A DNA stretch of 64,000 bases from Candidatus Eiseniibacteriota bacterium (GTDB lineage Bacteria > Orphanbacterota > Orphanbacteria > Orphanbacterales > Orphanbacteraceae), in the NCBI GenBank assembly GCA_029262235.1, contig JAJCZU010000006.1, positions 336,268 through 400,267 of the forward strand, written 5' to 3'. How positions within the stretch are numbered: position 1 is the first letter of the stretch; the number at the start of each line of letters is the position of its first letter. The position numbers and the translations under genes are program-made. Below the pieces are notes generated by a model, which had not been told where the DNA came from, searched no databases, and saw only the letters and a list, made by a program, of their open reading frames with translations. Below, in pieces: positions 17,200 through 29,263 of this stretch.

Positions 17200-17355
17200 G
17201 CCGCTTCTCCGAAGATGAGGGCTGATTTGAGAATGATCGGAGAGCATGCCACTCCATACAAAAAGGGGCCGAGGCGGCCATGATCGATCCGGAAGCTGGA
17301 TTCGAGACCAGACGGAGGGTACTGCTCCGCTGAGCTCTTGAAAACGACGCAGAAG

Positions 17356-17428
17356 CGTCCCCACGGGGAGTCGAACCCCGGTTTTCGCCGTGAAAGGGCG
17401 ACGTCCTAGGCCACTAGACGATGGGGAC
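17356..17428 (-). tRNA. tRNA-Glu (anticodon UUC)
   Basis: A 73-base cloverleaf on the minus strand. The acceptor stem GTCCCCA pairs with TGGGGAC, with G as discriminator. The anticodon arm CGCCC-TTTCAC-GGCG places TTC as anticodon, and the T arm is GGGG-TTCGACT-CCCC. The D arm has the AGTGG form usual for tRNA-Glu. CCA is not encoded (CTT follows) and must be added. Confidence 0.97.
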
Positions 17429-17505: not shown

Positions 17506-17535
17506 TTGACAGGGCGTTCCCGCCGTTCGTATAAT
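17506..17535 (+). promoter_or_regulatory. Consensus sigma-70 promoter of the regulator-methyltransferase pair
   Basis: TTGACA (17506-17511) and TATAAT (17530-17535) both match consensus perfectly, with an 18-base spacer. They lie 88 bases upstream of the ATG at 17623. This is the best housekeeping promoter in the window. Confidence 0.8.
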
Positions 17536-17622
17536 TGAGAACAGTACCGCGGGAAGCCGGCGCGGATACGCCGAGTCCCCCCGTGGTTTGCACCCATCGC
17601 TCCCCAGAAACGATGGTCACCG

Positions 17623-19011
17623 ATGAGGAACCGCCACGAAATCCTCGTCTGCGGTGAGCGCCGCGCGGAAATCACGACCCGGCTGCGGGACATTCTCCCC
17701 GAAGGCACCACCCCCTCGATTCTTTCCGTAACGGACGGCGCGGATCTCTGCGCGCAAAGTTCTTCCCCCGAGCCCGATCTCGTGCTGGCGTCGACTGACT
17801 GCGTACGGGACCAGGTATTTCTCGACTGGCTGCGTGATCATCATCGCGAACATGCGGTCGTCTGGATTCGCCGCAGCGACTCGCCGAACGAAACTCCTGT
17901 CGCGGGAGCGCTCGTGCTGCCGGAGCAGGAACTGCGCGCCGTTCCTTATCTGCTGAAGCTCGTGCGTCGCCGTGTGCAGGATGAAGCGCGCGCAGCAGGT
18001 GCGGGCGCGTACAAGGCGCGCCGCCGGATCGTCGGAGGGTCCGAAGGGATTCTCGAAGTACAGACGTACGCGCGCAAGGTCTGCAACGCGCAGTCGTCCG
18101 TACTCGTGACCGGGGAGAGCGGCACGGGGAAGGAACTGATCGCTTCGCTGATCCATTACGAAAGTGAGCGAAGGGGCGAGCCGTTCGTGAAGGTGAACTG
18201 CGCCGCCATTCCGGAAACGCTTCTCGAAACAGAACTCTTCGGCATCGAGAGCAATATCGCCACGAATGTAGACCGAAGGATCGGCAAGTTCGAACAGGCG
18301 CAACGGGGAACGATTTTCCTCGACGAAGTCGGTGACATGAGCCTCATGACGCAGGCGAAAGTGCTGCGTGTGCTTCAGGAGCGCGAGTTCGAACGGGTCG
18401 GCGGAACCGAAACGATCCATGTGCGAACGCGTGTGATTGCCGCTACGAATAAAGACCTGCGCGCCGAGATGAAGAAGGCGCTGTTCCGGTCGGACCTCTT
18501 TTATCGACTGAACGTCATCAACCTCCAGATTCCGGCGCTTCGCGATCGCCGCGAGGATATTCCTGCACTCACGGAGTACTTCATCGGGGTCTTCTGCGAG
18601 GAGAACGGACTTTCGCCGAGAACGGTTACGCCGGAGACGATGGAACTGCTGATCGATTACGAATGGCCCGGGAACGTGCGCGAACTCGAGAATGCGATCG
18701 AGCGCGCGGTCGTGCTCGGTGACGGAGACACGATCGCGACCGAAGACCTCCCGCCGGCCATCCTGGGGACTGTGCAACCGGGGGCCGACGACGCGGACGC
18801 CCGGACACTCCAGAGTCGTGTGTCGGACTTCGAGCGAAGCCTGCTGATCGACGCGCTCAACCGGAGTGACTGGGTCCAGGCGCACGCCGCGCGGCGGCTC
18901 GGCATTTCCGAGCGCAGCATGTGGCACTTCTACAAGAAGTACCGCCTCGACCGTTTCGTGAAGAATCGCCGTCCCGGCAGAAAACGTGGTCGCTCGGCGC
19001 GCGCTCTGTAG
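17623..19011 (+). CDS. NtrC-like AAA+ regulator lacking a GAFTGA loop
   Basis: A 462-residue protein. Residues 1-115 look like a receiver domain that has lost the phospho-acceptor ([10 protein letters not shown] has no Asp where the phosphate sits). The AAA+ domain has Walker A GESGTGKE at 164-171 and Walker B FLDEVGDM near 232. The sigma-54 contact loop, normally GAFTGA, reads [10 protein letters not shown] at about 210-219 after ELFGIE, so productive sigma-54 contact is doubtful. Arginine finger region [11 protein letters not shown] and a C-terminal Fis-type HTH ([20 protein letters not shown]) are kept. Expected role: DNA-binding AAA+ regulator, perhaps a sigma-70 regulator or repressor like TyrR-type proteins. 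It lies 48 bases before the fusion gene. Confidence 0.85.
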
Positions 19012-19059
19012 CCAGTTTTCGCTTGGAGGCCCGTCCCTGAGCGGCTACTCTTCTTGATC

Positions 19060-20214
19060 ATGAACCCGCCGCAACGCGTATTTCCGTTCCTGTTCGATCG
19101 CCACGGTGAGTGGCTCTGTCGATTCTTCTTTTTGTTCGTGGAAGACCCTCTCGACGCCGAAGATCTCGCGTACGAATATTTTATTCGGTTCTGGGACGAA
19201 GCGCCGGGCGCATGCGGGCGCGAATTCCTGTTGCAGCGCGCGTTCGAACTGCTCACGACGTACGACCGGCGCATGCGCCAGCGTCCGTACGAGCCGATTC
19301 CGATTGCGAATCCGGGCCCGGTGAAAAAGTCCGCGACGCAGTCGATCGGTGAGCGCTGGGACCGTCTTGCGCACGCGATCCTCTTCGCCCGTCTCGAGGC
19401 GAGGATCGCTCCCGAAGAAACGGGGGCCGCGTACGGATCGACGGACGCACGCGCGGCGCAGGTCGTGGAGAAGATCGTGCGATCGGCGACCGCGTCGTGG
19501 CCTGCGAAGGAGAAGGCGGAGGCGCGGGATGAAGTGCGGCGCTTTCTTGTCAGCGATGAGGGAACGGGTACGCCGGAGCCGCTCGCTCCGTTCGCGCTTC
19601 ATTATCGAAAGACGCTTCCCGACAAAGCGTTCCGCAGACTGAAGAGGCGGCTCGACCGGGAGCGCCCTTCGGGTGAAGAAGTCGTTTCGTACGAGGGAAT
19701 CGATTCGCCGATCGGTCGTGTCTGGATCGCGACGCGCGAGGAAGTGGCCACGACGATTTCGATTTCCGGCATGCACGAAGCCGATTTCGTGGCACGCATC
19801 GTACCCCGCTTCGGTTCGTTTCCCGAGAAGCTGGCCGCCGGTTCCACGTCAGCATCGAGACAGCTGCTCCGCTACTTCGACGGCTCGCTCCGCCGCTTTA
19901 CGTTTCCGTATCGATTTCTGGGCGCGACCACGTTTCAGTCCGAAGTGTGGTCCGCCTGCGCCCGGGTCGAATACGGGCAGATACGAAGCTACAAGGATAT
20001 CGCGGAAGCGATCGAAAAGCCGGGCGCCACGCGCGCTGTCGGCGGGGCGCTCAGCCGCAATCCGCTTCCCATCGTCGTTCCCTGTCACCGCATCCTCGCG
20101 AGCAACGGGCGACTTCACGGTTTCTCCGGCGGCCTCGATCGCAAGGGCAAGCTCCTTGCCATCGAAGGCGTCGGCGACCTCTTCGCATCGAGCCACGCGA
20201 TCGGGGAACAGTAG
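19060..20214 (+). CDS. Fusion of ECF sigma region-2-like domain and O6-alkylguanine-DNA alkyltransferase
   Basis: A 384-residue protein. The C-terminal 165 residues are an Ogt/MGMT suicide repair enzyme: IVVPCHRI with acceptor Cys342, the upstream FQSEVWSACARVEYGQIRSY DNA-binding start, and GFSGGLDRKGKLLAIEG. Residues 8-70 resemble region 2 of an extracytoplasmic-function sigma factor: LFDRHGEWLCRFFFLF, then EDPLDAEDLAYEYFIRFWDE (compare DAEDLVQETFLRAWR) and REFLLQRAFELLTTYDRR. Region 4 is not seen; about 120 residues of unknown helical sequence link the parts. ATG 19060 is preferred to TTG 19054. It probably removes O6-methylguanine; the sigma-like head may link repair to transcription (inference). 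Confidence 0.85.
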   Translation: MNPPQRVFPFLFDRHGEWLCRFFFLFVEDPLDAEDLAYEYFIRFWDEAPGACGREFLLQRAFELLTTYDRRMRQRPYEPIPIANPGPVKKSATQSIGERWDRLAHAILFARLEARIAPEETGAAYGSTDARAAQVVEKIVRSATASWPAKEKAEARDEVRRFLVSDEGTGTPEPLAPFALHYRKTLPDKAFRRLKRRLDRERPSGEEVVSYEGIDSPIGRVWIATREEVATTISISGMHEADFVARIVPRFGSFPEKLAAGSTSASRQLLRYFDGSLRRFTFPYRFLGATTFQSEVWSACARVEYGQIRSYKDIAEAIEKPGATRAVGGALSRNPLPIVVPCHRILASNGRLHGFSGGLDRKGKLLAIEGVGDLFASSHAIGEQ

Positions 20215-20231: not shown

Positions 20232-21461
20232 ATGAGACTCATCGGCACCGTATTTCGTACTGAACTTCGCGCGGCTCTCCGCGACCGCAATACCGTCGTG
20301 TACTCGCTCGTGATTCCGCTCGCGCTTTATCCGATTCTTTTCTGGGGGATAGGCGAGTGGTTCAGTTTTCAGCAAGGCTCTCTCGAGAAACAGAAGTCGC
20401 GCGTCGTGATCGAAGAAGAGGCGCGCTCTCCACTCGGCGAAGCGATCGCGGCTGACGAGCGCTGGCGCGTCAGCGAAAGGGAAACGGACGCGCTCGCCGC
20501 GGTGAGTGCGGGGGAGATCGACGCGTTCGTGCGCATCGAAGCGCCGTCTTCGGACACCGGCACCTGGTCCCTGCACGCCTGGTTCGACGAAGCCCGCGAT
20601 CGATCGCGCGTCGCGAAGACACGGCTTGGAGAAGTGATCGAAGAGACGGATCGCGCGCTCGTCGAGGATCGCCTGCTGGCTTACGGGGAAACGAACGAGA
20701 CCTTCGCGATCATTAATATGGAAACGGAAAACATCGCGTCGGCGAAAGAAGTCGGCCAGACAATACTCGCCCGCGTGCTTCCGATGCTGCTCGTCTTCAT
20801 GCTCAGCATGGGCGCGATGCATCCGGCTGTCGATGTTCTAGCCGGCGAAAAGGAACGCAAGACGATCGAGACGATTCTCGTGAGCGGGGCGCCGCGGGAG
20901 GCGATCCTGGCAGGCAAGTATCTGCTCGTTGTCACGGCGGCGTTTGCGGCACTCGTGCTGAATCTCATCGGTATGGTGCTTGCATTCAAACATATGTTCT
21001 CGATGATGGGGGATGCGAAGATTCAAATCGCGATCCCGTTCACGTCGGTGATCGCCGTCCTGTTTGCGGGGCTGCTTTTCGCAGCCTTCGTGGCGGCCGT
21101 CATGGTTCTGTTCGCCAGCTTTGCGCGCACTTTCAAAGAGGGCCAGAGTTATGTTACGCCGTTTTATCTGCTGATGATGTTCCCCACTCTCCTCGCGGTC
21201 ATGCCGGGAGTGGAGCTCGACCTTCGCACGGCCTGGATTCCGATCACGAACGTCGCGCTCCTGTTTCGGGAAGTCATTGCGGGGAATTTTCCATGGGGAC
21301 CGATCGCCATCACGCTCGGCACGCTGCTCCTGACGACGGCTTTCGTGATCGCCATTGCGCGACGCGTGTATGCCGACGAGGAACTGCGGCTCGGCAGTGG
21401 AGGGAAGACGCTTCGCTCCCTGCCCTCGATCATCCGGCGAAGCCGCAAGAGGAGTGCATGA
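20232..21461 (+). CDS. NatB-like ABC-2 permease
   Basis: A 409-residue permease. The first membrane segment follows FRTELRAALRDRNTV (VVYSLVIPLALYPILFWGIG), then comes a 160-residue extracytoplasmic domain, then the signature MHPAVDVLAGEKERKTIETIL and four to five membrane segments. This is the NatB/CcmB-like organisation used in Na+ or drug efflux. The next gene's ribosome site overlaps its end, so it is the first gene of a three-gene operon with the ATPase and the permease-protease fusion. Confidence 0.86.
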   Translation: MRLIGTVFRTELRAALRDRNTVVYSLVIPLALYPILFWGIGEWFSFQQGSLEKQKSRVVIEEEARSPLGEAIAADERWRVSERETDALAAVSAGEIDAFVRIEAPSSDTGTWSLHAWFDEARDRSRVAKTRLGEVIEETDRALVEDRLLAYGETNETFAIINMETENIASAKEVGQTILARVLPMLLVFMLSMGAMHPAVDVLAGEKERKTIETILVSGAPREAILAGKYLLVVTAAFAALVLNLIGMVLAFKHMFSMMGDAKIQIAIPFTSVIAVLFAGLLFAAFVAAVMVLFASFARTFKEGQSYVTPFYLLMMFPTLLAVMPGVELDLRTAWIPITNVALLFREVIAGNFPWGPIAITLGTLLLTTAFVIAIARRVYADEELRLGSGGKTLRSLPSIIRRSRKRSA

Positions 21462-21462
21462 C

Positions 21463-22221
21463 ATGAGCAGCATGATTTCGGCCGACACGCTCGTAAAGCG
21501 CTATCACGATCCGGCGCGCGGCGACCTGCTCGCGGTCGATCACGTCTCGTTCGAGTGCAGGGAAGGGGAGATCTTCGGCCTCCTGGGGCCGAACGGAGCA
21601 GGGAAGACGACCACGCTCAGGATGCTGGCGACTCTGCTGAAGCCGACGTCCGGTACTGCCGTCCTGAACGGATATGACGTCGTGCGCGAATCGGAAAAAG
21701 TACGCGCTTCGATCGGGTATCTCTCGGGCGATACCGGACTCTACGGCCGGCTCACGCCGCTCGAAACGCTGCGCTACTTCGCGCGGCTCAATCATTTCCC
21801 CGAGGGCCGCCTCGAAGAGCGGGTCATGTCGCTGGTGCGCGAGTTCGAGATCGAGCGCTTTGCGGATGTTCGCTGCGAAAAACTCTCCACGGGAATGAAA
21901 CAGAAAGTTTCGATTGCGCGGGCGGTCGTGCACGACCCCGCGATCCTCATTTTCGACGAGCCGACATCCGGGCTCGACATTCTGGTTGCCGACACGCTTC
22001 TGACCTACATCGAACGCTGCCGCGACCTCGACAAATGCGTCGTGTTCTCGACGCACGTCATGAGCGAAGCGGAGCGTCTGTGCGACCGGATCGCGGTCAT
22101 CTACGAAGGGCGCATTCTCGCGGTCGGGTCTCTCGAAGAACTTCGCAGTCTGACCGGCGAGCGTTATCTTGAGAAGATTTTCCGGTCCCTTCTCGAAAGC
22201 GGGTCCCGTGAAATCGCGTGA
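21463..22221 (+). CDS. NatA-like ABC transporter ATP-binding protein
   Basis: A 252-residue ATPase. Walker A is GPNGAGKTT at 42-50, the signature [14 protein letters not shown], and Walker [14 protein letters not shown]. The segment [16 protein letters not shown] is characteristic of NatA-type proteins. An AGAGGAG ribosome site lies eight bases before the ATG. It overlaps the next gene (GTG 22208) by 14 bases. Confidence 0.92.
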
Positions 22222-24163
22222 CGTCGGCATCGTGTTCCGGAAGGAACTCCTCGATCTTCTCCGTGACAGGCGCAGTATTCTCGCCACGATCGTTTTTCCG
22301 ATCGCGCTCTTTCCGCTCCTCATGTTCGGCAGCAGCCGCATTCAGCAGGTAGGCGAGAGAAACCTCTCGCTCGAAGTGCTTGCCGTCTCCGTAGAGGACG
22401 CCACGCATCAACTGGAGGCGAGGCTCCGATCCGATACGAGTCTCGTCGTCCGTGCGGTGGACGATCCGCGGGCCGCGATTGCGCGCCGTGAAATTTTCGG
22501 AGCGGTTGTCGTGAACGAGCCGATCCCGGGCCCCGGGGAGGACCCGGTTCGGGTCACGATCCTGATGGACGACACTGCGGAGCGATCGGAAGTCGCGTCA
22601 AACCGGCTTCGCGAACACGTAGAGACATGGCAGTCCGAACTCCAGGCTGCTCGCATTGAGAGCATCGGGGCCACGGGGGGACTCGTGCGCGCTGTCGAGT
22701 GGGAGTCGATCAACCTCGCGAGCGAGGCCCGCATGGCGGGCGATTCCCTGGGCCGGTTCATGCCGATCCTGCTCCTCTTTCTTCTCATGAACCCCGCGTC
22801 CGTTGCCGCAACCGATCTGTTTTCCGGTGAGAAGGAGCGGAAGACGATCGAGACGTTGCTTACGTCGAAGGCGGATCGGCGCTCGATCGTGATGGGCAAG
22901 TTTCTGACGGTCATTCTCGTCGCGGTTCTGTCGACGCTGCTCTTTCTCGCGTCTTCGCTCTTTTTCTCGCGAGTCGGGGCCGTACCGGACGACGCGCTCA
23001 TGGCAACGCTGTCACTGTCCGTCCCTTCTCTGCTTGTCGTGATTCTCGTGTCGATCCCGCTTGCGATCTTCCTGTCGGCGATTCTCGTTCTCGTAGCCGC
23101 TCAGGCGAAGAGCTATAAAGAGGCGCAGACACTTCTGCTGCCGATCATGCTGGCCGCTCTGCTGCCCGCGGCGGCCTCACTGCTGCCCGGGATTCGGATC
23201 GACTCCATCGTGGCGCTCGTGCCGATCGCAAATACGGCGCTGGCGATGCGGGAAGCCCTGGTCGGTAATTTCCCCGTCATTCCGCTGGCTCTCGTCATTC
23301 TTTCGAACGCGCTCTATGCGGGGTTCGTTCTGATGCAGGCCGTTTCCTATATCGAGAGTGAGGAATCGATTCTGGGTGAACGTCCGCCTGCGCCCGGCGA
23401 CGACACGGCCGGTGCGGCGAAAGAAGCCACACTCTTCGGCCTCGCCACGCTTCTGCTGTTCTACTACGTCGGCGTGAGACTCCAGGCGGCGGACCTGCTG
23501 AGCGGACTGCTCGTTTCGCTCTGGGGCATCATCCTGGGCGCCGCGATCCTTTTTGCCGCCGTGAAGAAGCTCCCGGCGCGCGAGGCATTCGCGCTGCGGG
23601 CCCCGCGACCGCTCGCACTTGCCGGTGCCGTTCTGCTCGCGATGCCGACTCTGTTCGCGGCCCACGGTCTCTTCGCGCTGCAATCGCTCTTCGTGCCGGT
23701 GCCCGAACAGCTCTTCGAAGCGATGGAACAGATGATGGACCTCGGCAATGGTTCGCTTCCGCTGCTCGTGTTCGCGATCGCGGTCAGTCCCGGGATCTGC
23801 GAGGAGGCCTTCTTCCGGGGGCTCGTGCTCGGGCGCTATCGGGAGGCGCGCATGCCGGCGTGGAAGGCGATTTTCTTTTCCGCCCTTCTTTTCGGGCTGT
23901 TTCATTTGAGCATCTACCGGATTCTGCCGACCGCGACGATGGGGGCCGTGGCGGGATGGCTGACGTGGCGCACACGCTCTATCTTTCCGGCCATGCTCTT
24001 CCATACCCTGTACAACGGAACTCTCGTGCTGGGAGAGACTTACGACTTTCCGGGCGAGTCACTTCCGACCAGTCCCGTCTGGATCGCGAGCCTCGTTGCC
24101 GCCGCGGTTCTGGGGGCCCTTGCGATTGCCTCAAACGGGTGCGAGAGCCGCTCTCGGGCTTGA
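22208..24163 (+). CDS. NatB-like permease fused to a CPBP intramembrane protease
   Basis: A 651-residue membrane protein. The N-terminal 390 residues repeat the NatB layout (VFRKELLDLLRDRRSIL; FSGEKERKTIETLLTSKADRRS). The C-terminal 220 residues are a CPBP/CAAX-protease-like domain with the catalytic motifs EEAFFRGL, FGLFHLS and FHTLYNG. The same fused layout is known for ABC permeases in Firmicutes and Planctomycetes. Start GTG overlaps the ATPase gene. The operon then gives one ATPase with two different permease halves. The protease half may act on the exported cargo or on the transporter (inference). Confidence 0.85.
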   Translation: MKSRDVGIVFRKELLDLLRDRRSILATIVFPIALFPLLMFGSSRIQQVGERNLSLEVLAVSVEDATHQLEARLRSDTSLVVRAVDDPRAAIARREIFGAVVVNEPIPGPGEDPVRVTILMDDTAERSEVASNRLREHVETWQSELQAARIESIGATGGLVRAVEWESINLASEARMAGDSLGRFMPILLLFLLMNPASVAATDLFSGEKERKTIETLLTSKADRRSIVMGKFLTVILVAVLSTLLFLASSLFFSRVGAVPDDALMATLSLSVPSLLVVILVSIPLAIFLSAILVLVAAQAKSYKEAQTLLLPIMLAALLPAAASLLPGIRIDSIVALVPIANTALAMREALVGNFPVIPLALVILSNALYAGFVLMQAVSYIESEESILGERPPAPGDDTAGAAKEATLFGLATLLLFYYVGVRLQAADLLSGLLVSLWGIILGAAILFAAVKKLPAREAFALRAPRPLALAGAVLLAMPTLFAAHGLFALQSLFVPVPEQLFEAMEQMMDLGNGSLPLLVFAIAVSPGICEEAFFRGLVLGRYREARMPAWKAIFFSALLFGLFHLSIYRILPTATMGAVAGWLTWRTRSIFPAMLFHTLYNGTLVLGETYDFPGESLPTSPVWIASLVAAAVLGALAIASNGCESRSRA

Positions 24164-25195: not shown

Positions 25196-25226
25196 ATTGA
25201 TTGGAAACCCCTGAGGGAGAAACGCC

Positions 25227-26249
25227 GTGGCTCGTCTTGCGACTCTCATGATCCTGACAGTTCTGATATTGCCGGGCCTCGCGCTCGGGGCGTCGCTGAC
25301 GTCCGAGGACGTTTCTGCGCTCTGGAAGGCAGGCGTCGGCGAACGCGTGATCCTGGCCAAGATCGCCGAAAGCGGCTCCACCTTCGACCTTTCCACCACA
25401 GAAATCATCGATCTCAAGAAAGCGGGCATTCCCGATTCGGTCCTGGAAGCCATGATCCGTTCCGGGGAAACCGACCTCGACGCCATTCAGGCCGCGATCC
25501 CCGCACGGAATGCGGAAACCGACGTCGACGGGGAAGATGAGATCCCGGCTGATCTCGGATTCGATCGCTACGAAACGCCCGAGGCAGTGGAGGTCGTGCT
25601 CGTGCCCTATGCCGTCCCCCGGTACGGCGGGTACTCCTTTTCATACTGGCACGGTTACTGGAACGATCCATGGTACGCCTCGGTGGCGTTCGACTGGTAC
25701 TACCCCCGCTACTGGTACGGCGCCTACTGTTCGCCGATCGGTTACGCGAGCCTGTACTGGGGCCATTACTGGGGCCACCATTCCTACAGTCACTACGGCC
25801 ACCACGGACATCATGGTCACCATTACAACGATCACCGCGGCGACTACGGGCGCCCGCAAACGCGGCATCAGTCGGTCTATCGCTCGGGATATACCAAGGA
25901 GCGGAGTCGTACGAATGTGGCGGCTCGCAGCGGAAGCCGTTCCGAAACGCACTACAGAAGCGGCACGCAGCGGAGCGTAACCGCGCGGGATACGAAGGCC
26001 ACCACGCGGTCACGGGGAACCACGGCGGGCACGATCACCCGTCCTTCCGGCTCGACACGCTATAGCCCGAAGGAAACGAGGCCGAGCAGCGGAACGAAGT
26101 CCACCGTGCGCTCGCGCCCTTCGAGTACGGGGCGAAGCGCCGTCCAGCGTCCGGCACCGTCGTCGAACCGTGGCACGTCTTCACGAGCCACTACGGGACG
26201 GTCGGGCACGACTCGATCAGGCAGTTCAGGTGGCAAGCGCGGTCGCTGA
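25227..26249 (+). CDS. Secreted His/Tyr/Trp-rich low-complexity protein
   Basis: A 340-residue protein. After a signal peptide (LATLMILTVLILPGLALGA) comes a helical module LWKAGVGERVILAKIAESG and LKKAGIPDSVLEAMI, a motif found repeated in many delta-proteobacterial and FCB envelope proteins. Residues 130-200 are rich in Tyr, Trp and Gly, then comes a histidine-dense run (HHSYSHYGHHGHHGHHYND) able to bind metal. The last 130 residues are Ser/Thr/Arg-rich and disordered. Start GTG has a GAGGGAGAA site. Function unknown; a metal-binding or wall-associated role is a guess. Confidence 0.7.
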   Translation: MARLATLMILTVLILPGLALGASLTSEDVSALWKAGVGERVILAKIAESGSTFDLSTTEIIDLKKAGIPDSVLEAMIRSGETDLDAIQAAIPARNAETDVDGEDEIPADLGFDRYETPEAVEVVLVPYAVPRYGGYSFSYWHGYWNDPWYASVAFDWYYPRYWYGAYCSPIGYASLYWGHYWGHHSYSHYGHHGHHGHHYNDHRGDYGRPQTRHQSVYRSGYTKERSRTNVAARSGSRSETHYRSGTQRSVTARDTKATTRSRGTTAGTITRPSGSTRYSPKETRPSSGTKSTVRSRPSSTGRSAVQRPAPSSNRGTSSRATTGRSGTTRSGSSGGKRGR

Positions 26250-26363
26250 GCCACTTTTGTTACGATAGTTTTACGAATTCGTGCACCAATCTAAGCTAGT
26301 ATGGGGTCTGCACTCATGCTGAAAAAACAAAACGCCCCTTTCTTGAAGAAGGAGAGTTCATTG

Positions 26364-27008
26364 ATGTTCAACGCAAAGAGACTCACGATCGCACTCGCTG
26401 TTCCGGCGCTGCTCGGTCTGGCATTCGTTACGGCCGAATCGGGTGACTACAAGAAGTCGTCGGGAAGCAGCAGTTGCCAGTCGACCACGAAGCAGGCAAG
26501 TGCCAACGGTTCGTGTTCGAGCACGAAGCAGGCCAGCGGCTCCACGTGCTCGTCGACCAAGGCTTCGGTGAAGCAGGCCAGCGCGAACGGAGCCTCGTGC
26601 TCGGGCGCCCAGAAAGCCAGCGCTTCGTGCTCCGGCGCGAATGCCACGGTCAAGCAGGCCAGCGCGGGCGCCGGCTGCTGTGCCGGTGGCGCGAAAGTCT
26701 CCACGGCTTCGGCCTGTGCTTCGGCCTCGAAGTGCGGCGTCAGTCTCGTGAAGGCGGAAGACGGTCTGCGGATTTACGCTCTCGGCGACGAAGCCGGCAC
26801 GAAAGAGTGGATGGAAACGGTGGCGATGGACCTCCGTGAAAACCGTAACCTGAAGGTCGAGATCTTCGAAGCCAAGGGTGGATCGTACATGCTCGTGAAG
26901 AGCACGTCCTCCGGTGCCGCCAGCTACACGCAGCTCGTGCAGGCTGCTGCGGGCGAACAGAAGTGCATGGCCGTATGCGCTACGAACGGCTGCCCTCCGA
27001 AGGCGTAA
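26364..27008 (+). CDS. Secreted Cys/Ser/Lys-rich repeat protein with a C-terminal globular domain
   Basis: A 214-residue protein with a signal peptide (KRLTIALAVPALLGLAFVTA). Residues 25-125 hold five imperfect copies of a K-Q-A-S-A-N-G/A-S-C-S unit (for example TKQASANGSCSSTKQASG and VKQASANGASCSG). Cysteines recur at regular spacing in these repeats. Residues 130-205 look folded (GLRIYALGDEAGTKEWMETV and YTQLVQAAAGEQKCMAVC) and end CATNGCPPKA. The ATG at 26364 was chosen for its AAGGAGAG site. It could be a metal-binding, disulfide-cross-linked or lipid-anchored surface protein. The family is not recognised. Confidence 0.68.
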   Translation: MFNAKRLTIALAVPALLGLAFVTAESGDYKKSSGSSSCQSTTKQASANGSCSSTKQASGSTCSSTKASVKQASANGASCSGAQKASASCSGANATVKQASAGAGCCAGGAKVSTASACASASKCGVSLVKAEDGLRIYALGDEAGTKEWMETVAMDLRENRNLKVEIFEAKGGSYMLVKSTSSGAASYTQLVQAAAGEQKCMAVCATNGCPPKA

Positions 27009-27068: not shown

Positions 27069-27223
27069 ATGTAAGTCGAAACCAGAGAGGAAAGCGAACG
27101 ACGTAAAGCGGAAGAAAACAACCAATCTTGGGAAGGATCGTTAAAGAAACGACCCTGTCGGTCGATGGTTGTACAAAAGGGGCAAACCCGGCCAGCCGTA
27201 GACACGGGAAGGGGACGTATCAC

Positions 27224-29263
<2,040 letters not shown>

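Follow-up and report, generated by a model that had tools for sequence, protein, structure and literature searches.

Sigma-fold domains are known as initiators of transcription or, in PhyR, decoys, and we know of no bacterium in which the direct reversal of O6-alkylguanine is tied to transcription. Ada carries its regulatory methyl acceptor in an N-terminal zinc domain. In the sections of the literature consulted, fusions of the alkyltransferase MGMT are described in Ada, with EndoV and with a histone-like domain (PMC10779285); the consulted extracts of reviews on ECF sigma factors refer to MGMT solely in connection with ECF122, next to which its gene lies (PMC8999054). An initial annotation of the window (the whole 64,000-nucleotide stretch of DNA analysed here) described an unfamiliar fusion of an ECF sigma region 2-like head with a complete MGMT. 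This unfamiliarity is borne out: no sigma–MGMT fusion was found in the ECF and MGMT literature searched, parts of which were accessible and in which a mention in Casas-Pastor 2021 is possible, and none elsewhere among the genomes sampled.

The fusion gene and its parts are as follows:
19060-20214, + strand: gene for a putative pseudo-sigma–MGMT fusion (384 aa; open frame; architecture shared by 7/7 genomes of the phylum)
19078-19281, + strand: sigma-2-like domain, three helices (residues 7-74; sub-threshold Pfam Sigma70_r2; ECF profile match at residues 7-49; predicted helices with an ECF-like fold)
19144-19164, + strand: DPLDAED motif of region 2.2 (residues 29-35; invariant in 7/7 relatives)
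19333-19500, + strand: degenerate sigma-4-like domain (residues 92-147; matches of the family profile to sigma factors in the PDB; hhalign; predicted helices, pLDDT about 87-90; GTVKSRxxRAR eroded)
19501-19674, + strand: helical linker (residues 148-205; predicted helices 149-164, 173-183 and 188-200)
19675-20211, + strand: O6-alkylguanine-DNA alkyltransferase (MGMT) domain (residues 206-384; PF01035, 1.6e-30; TIGR00589, 1e-29; fold match to M. tuberculosis OGT)
20080-20091, + strand: active-site PCHR (residues 341-344, acceptor Cys342; invariant in the six members covering the site)

One open frame holds both sigma-like motifs singled out by the initial annotation, LFDRHGEWLCRFFF and DAEDLAYEYFIRFW, together with the C-terminal MGMT and its PCHR, as had been claimed. 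The proposed start at 17506 was wrong, as positions 17623-19011 belong to a separate sigma-54-dependent activator gene and the fusion is correspondingly smaller. The fusion was found in all seven sampled genomes of the phylum, representing five genera (the copy in genome G006 is split by contig ends), and this recurrence excludes chance. A sequencing or assembly artefact was also considered and ruled out, as independent genomes agree. The fusion has a single origin, its MGMT domains grouping in one clade (support 100/97). Among the matches listed from 386 genomes, a sample of relatives and of the wider domain, none besides the fusion extended over both halves, and matches elsewhere were to MGMT only. 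A profile search of the genome contigs with the head yielded four loci, all within the same phylum set, and no relative of the fusion was found on viral contigs. We found no ECF gene within 1.5-kb flanks of the nearest standalone MGMTs, so no unfused ancestor is seen.

The head, residues 7-147, is an ECF sigma factor in degenerate form that comprises both a sigma-2 and a sigma-4 domain. The signal from this protein alone is weak: Pfam Sigma70_r2 matches with E = 0.0011 and 19.1 bits, below its cut-off of 24, and none of the ECF or sigma-70 models reached its curated cut-off. Sigma identity is therefore secured by the relatives, for which family profile, hhalign and fold agree. A seven-member N-terminal profile retrieved ECF sigma factors of the PDB as its top matches (best 5.7e-5, profile positions 15-146, regions 2 and 4), and hhalign aligned the family head with 45 ECFs, taken from the present genomes plus a handful of other bacteria, at 98.8% probability over 143 columns. 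These profile comparisons uphold the sigma similarity proposed for the head, but region 4, which had been reported as lacking, is present in degenerate form at about residues 92-147. In relatives, ECF models are matched over almost their whole length: TIGR02983 matches the member from genome G002 at 3.6e-9, and full-length ECF similarity is kept in the members from G002, G003 and G005. Residues 2-155 of the AlphaFold2 model align with structures of ECF sigma factors (Z 10.2 for RpoE and 9.3 for SigW), and the sigma-like domains of PhyR are also among the structural matches of this model (Z about 8.2-8.5). A second model, of the G002 member, was too poor for use (pLDDT 51).

DPLDAED is invariant in 7/7 members although identity between N-terminal halves from different genera is only 25-30%; it supplies 7 of the 13 invariant N-terminal alignment columns, and a contiguous run of this kind arose in 1 of 200,000 shuffles. 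Between the fusion gene and its 90%-identical congener, omega was 0.083 overall and 0.018 over residues 7-47 (small counts, with 1 nonsynonymous against 10 synonymous differences), below the 0.045 of the MGMT part; the values for residues 48-99, sigma-4 and the linker were 0.23, 0.17 and 0.08, respectively. The family's match to conserved ECF positions (0.67-0.77 for ordinary ECFs) is 0.64 for region 2.2 and 0.69 for region 4.1 but drops to 0.29 for the 2.3-2.4 helix and to 0.26 for region 4.2; region 2.1 also fits the ECF consensus poorly (0.19). The region 2.4 Trp and Asn, present in 41/45 and 37/45 of the ECF set, are lost in all seven members, and the loop of region 2.3 has become shorter. 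The −35 recognition helix, GTVKSRxxRAR, is eroded (match 0.26, versus 0.67 in ECFs), with its Arg kept in three members only.

The region 2.2 Gln that follows DAED in 43/45 ECFs is replaced by Y, H or R in every member, and the adjacent Glu is lost in three; we take these residues to be the equivalents of sigma-70 Q406 and E407, which help to bind core. With this Gln replaced, RNA polymerase (RNAP) binding by the head is no more than plausible. The DAED motif of ECFs has been described as contacting RNAP beta' (PMC8999054, in the part consulted), and its standing as the most conserved part of the head fits the polymerase binding that the initial annotation had suggested. Retention of the polymerase-side motif, combined with loss of the DNA-reading side, suits a docking module better than a functional sigma factor; judged by its residues, the head is probably a pseudo-sigma.

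The alkyltransferase half scored above the curated cut-offs for Ogt/MGMT (PF01035, 105 bits against 27; TIGR00589, 102 against 46). M. tuberculosis OGT was its best PDB sequence match (5.9e-27) and also its fold match (Z 11.0), although the assignment rests on sequence because the MGMT C terminus has low confidence in the first structure model. All six members covering these positions share Y311, R325, N334, C342, H343 and E369, which presumably correspond to human MGMT Y114, R128, N137, C145, H146 and E172, such that this half appears to be catalytically intact. The same genome encodes a second, conventional Ogt (G000:C8:408834-409598, L038), which makes a special role of the fusion plausible. 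A separate full Ada-type protein is encoded in G006, and a close relative of that protein in G004. The linker of the G002 protein (L005:889-2097) contains HAAGCPVC and further Cys and His residues, resembling a zinc-binding anti-sigma motif; as to an origin of the linker from such a domain, Pfam zf-HC2 was not matched and the cysteines are absent from the other members.

Gene order around the fusion is conserved in the phylum (in G006 only the activator side is visible):
17623-19011, + strand: sigma-54 activator-like gene with AAA+ and Fis HTH, upstream syntenic partner (PF00158, 8.3e-61; synteny)
20232-21461, + strand: ABC-2 permease (PF12698, 7.5e-27; synteny; starts 17 bp after the fusion gene)
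21463-22221, + strand: ABC transporter ATPase (PF00005, 8.8e-33; synteny)
22169-24163, + strand: ABC-2 permease fused to a CPBP (Rce1-like) protease (PF12698, 2.8e-21; PF02517, 2.3e-21; synteny; start codon uncertain)

The 17-bp gap suggests that the fusion gene and the downstream ABC genes form an operon. The activator-like protein has NIATNV in place of the GAFTGA loop (N/R-I/T-A-T-N/L/G-V in the family alignment), although sigma-54 is encoded in 7/7 genomes. A tRNA-Glu gene (ttc; 17355-17428, minus strand) lies just upstream of the activator gene. Further downstream, two consecutive open frames (25215-27005) are conserved in several relatives and have no Pfam matches, and they are directly followed by a PrkA-type kinase gene (27107-29260). 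Neither a transcription-coupled repair gene in the neighbourhood of the fusion nor an anti-sigma gene in its conserved part was recognised.

From the observed architecture, single origin and conservation of the fusion, the selection on both of its halves, the retained DAED and the eroded promoter-reading side, we tentatively favour a phylum-specific protein in which a decayed ECF sigma factor would dock MGMT on RNAP. The head would bind core through the beta' region that receives sigma region 2.2 and would open no promoters, and docking would place the alkyltransferase beside transcribed DNA, where it could remove O6-alkyl groups by a transcription-coupled kind of direct reversal. Alkylation of Cys342 would be a one-shot event and might in addition alter or terminate the contact with polymerase. 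That the phylum in this way performs transcription-coupled direct reversal, with an alkyltransferase permanently mounted on an RNAP-riding pseudo-sigma and repairing O6-alkylguanine in transcribed DNA, is a further-reaching proposal that we consider doubtful. Against docking itself, the DAED stretch could be retained for folding or for another partner, and the replaced Gln, the poor fit of region 2.1 and a neighbourhood in which no transcription-coupled repair gene is recognised also speak against it.

The same features bear on three other readings. If the head still worked as a non-canonical sigma factor or as a transcription regulator, its own operon being one conceivable target, alkylation of Cys342 could change it and the protein would act as an Ada-like sensor. 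We regard this as possible, if on the doubtful side: Ada is a precedent for an alkyltransferase doubling as a sensor, fused C-terminal domains control several of the ECF groups (PMC8999054, in the part consulted), the gene lies between the activator-like gene and the ABC operon in the family's genomes and three members retain full-length ECF similarity, but all or most members have lost the region 2.4 Asn and Trp together with much of the recognition helix of 4.2, the 2.3 loop is shortened and the N-terminal zinc domain of Ada is absent (no Pfam match). The structural matches to PhyR, itself a precedent for an ECF-fold domain unable to initiate transcription (PMC8103513, in the part consulted), raise the alternative of a decoy that binds an anti-sigma factor and frees a genuine ECF once the MGMT half is alkylated or occupied. 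PhyR is, however, described in that part as degenerate in both its promoter and core-RNAP regions, whereas DAED is the best conserved part here, and with no anti-sigma gene recognised in the conserved neighbourhood a decoy seems unlikely. The faster evolution of residues 48-99 and of the sigma-4 part (omega 0.17-0.23) would suit a fossil sigma domain that an ordinary MGMT keeps merely as an appendage for solubility or structure; seven contiguous invariant residues, the strong constraint on residues 7-47 and retention across five genera make this distinctly improbable.

Docking on RNAP thus remains our preferred reading, under which the fusion may connect direct DNA repair with the machinery of transcription. 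Because it has a single origin, keeps the polymerase-contact motif and has lost promoter reading, a specific link between repair and RNAP becomes testable with one protein. The domain combination, and possibly also its function, may be new. Like ECFs with a fused C-terminal domain, the protein has a sigma-2/sigma-4 module followed by a C-terminal extension, but here the extension is a DNA-repair enzyme and the module lacks promoter-reading residues. The closest case reported is ECF122, likewise associated with a 6-O-methylguanine DNA methyltransferase (PMC8999054, in the part consulted), which is encoded there by a separate neighbouring gene instead of being fused (a comparison made by description). 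Ada, AGT-EndoV and C. elegans AGT-2 also join an alkyltransferase to another functional module, none of them a sigma-factor module in the consulted part of the source (PMC10779285), and relative to Ada the fusion lacks both the methyl-phosphotriester zinc domain and the AraC-type HTH (no Pfam match). With PhyR it shares structural similarity and an ECF fold probably unable to initiate transcription; PhyR combines a receiver domain with a degenerate RNAP interface (PMC8103513, in the part consulted), whereas the fusion has no receiver (no Pfam match) and keeps DAED.
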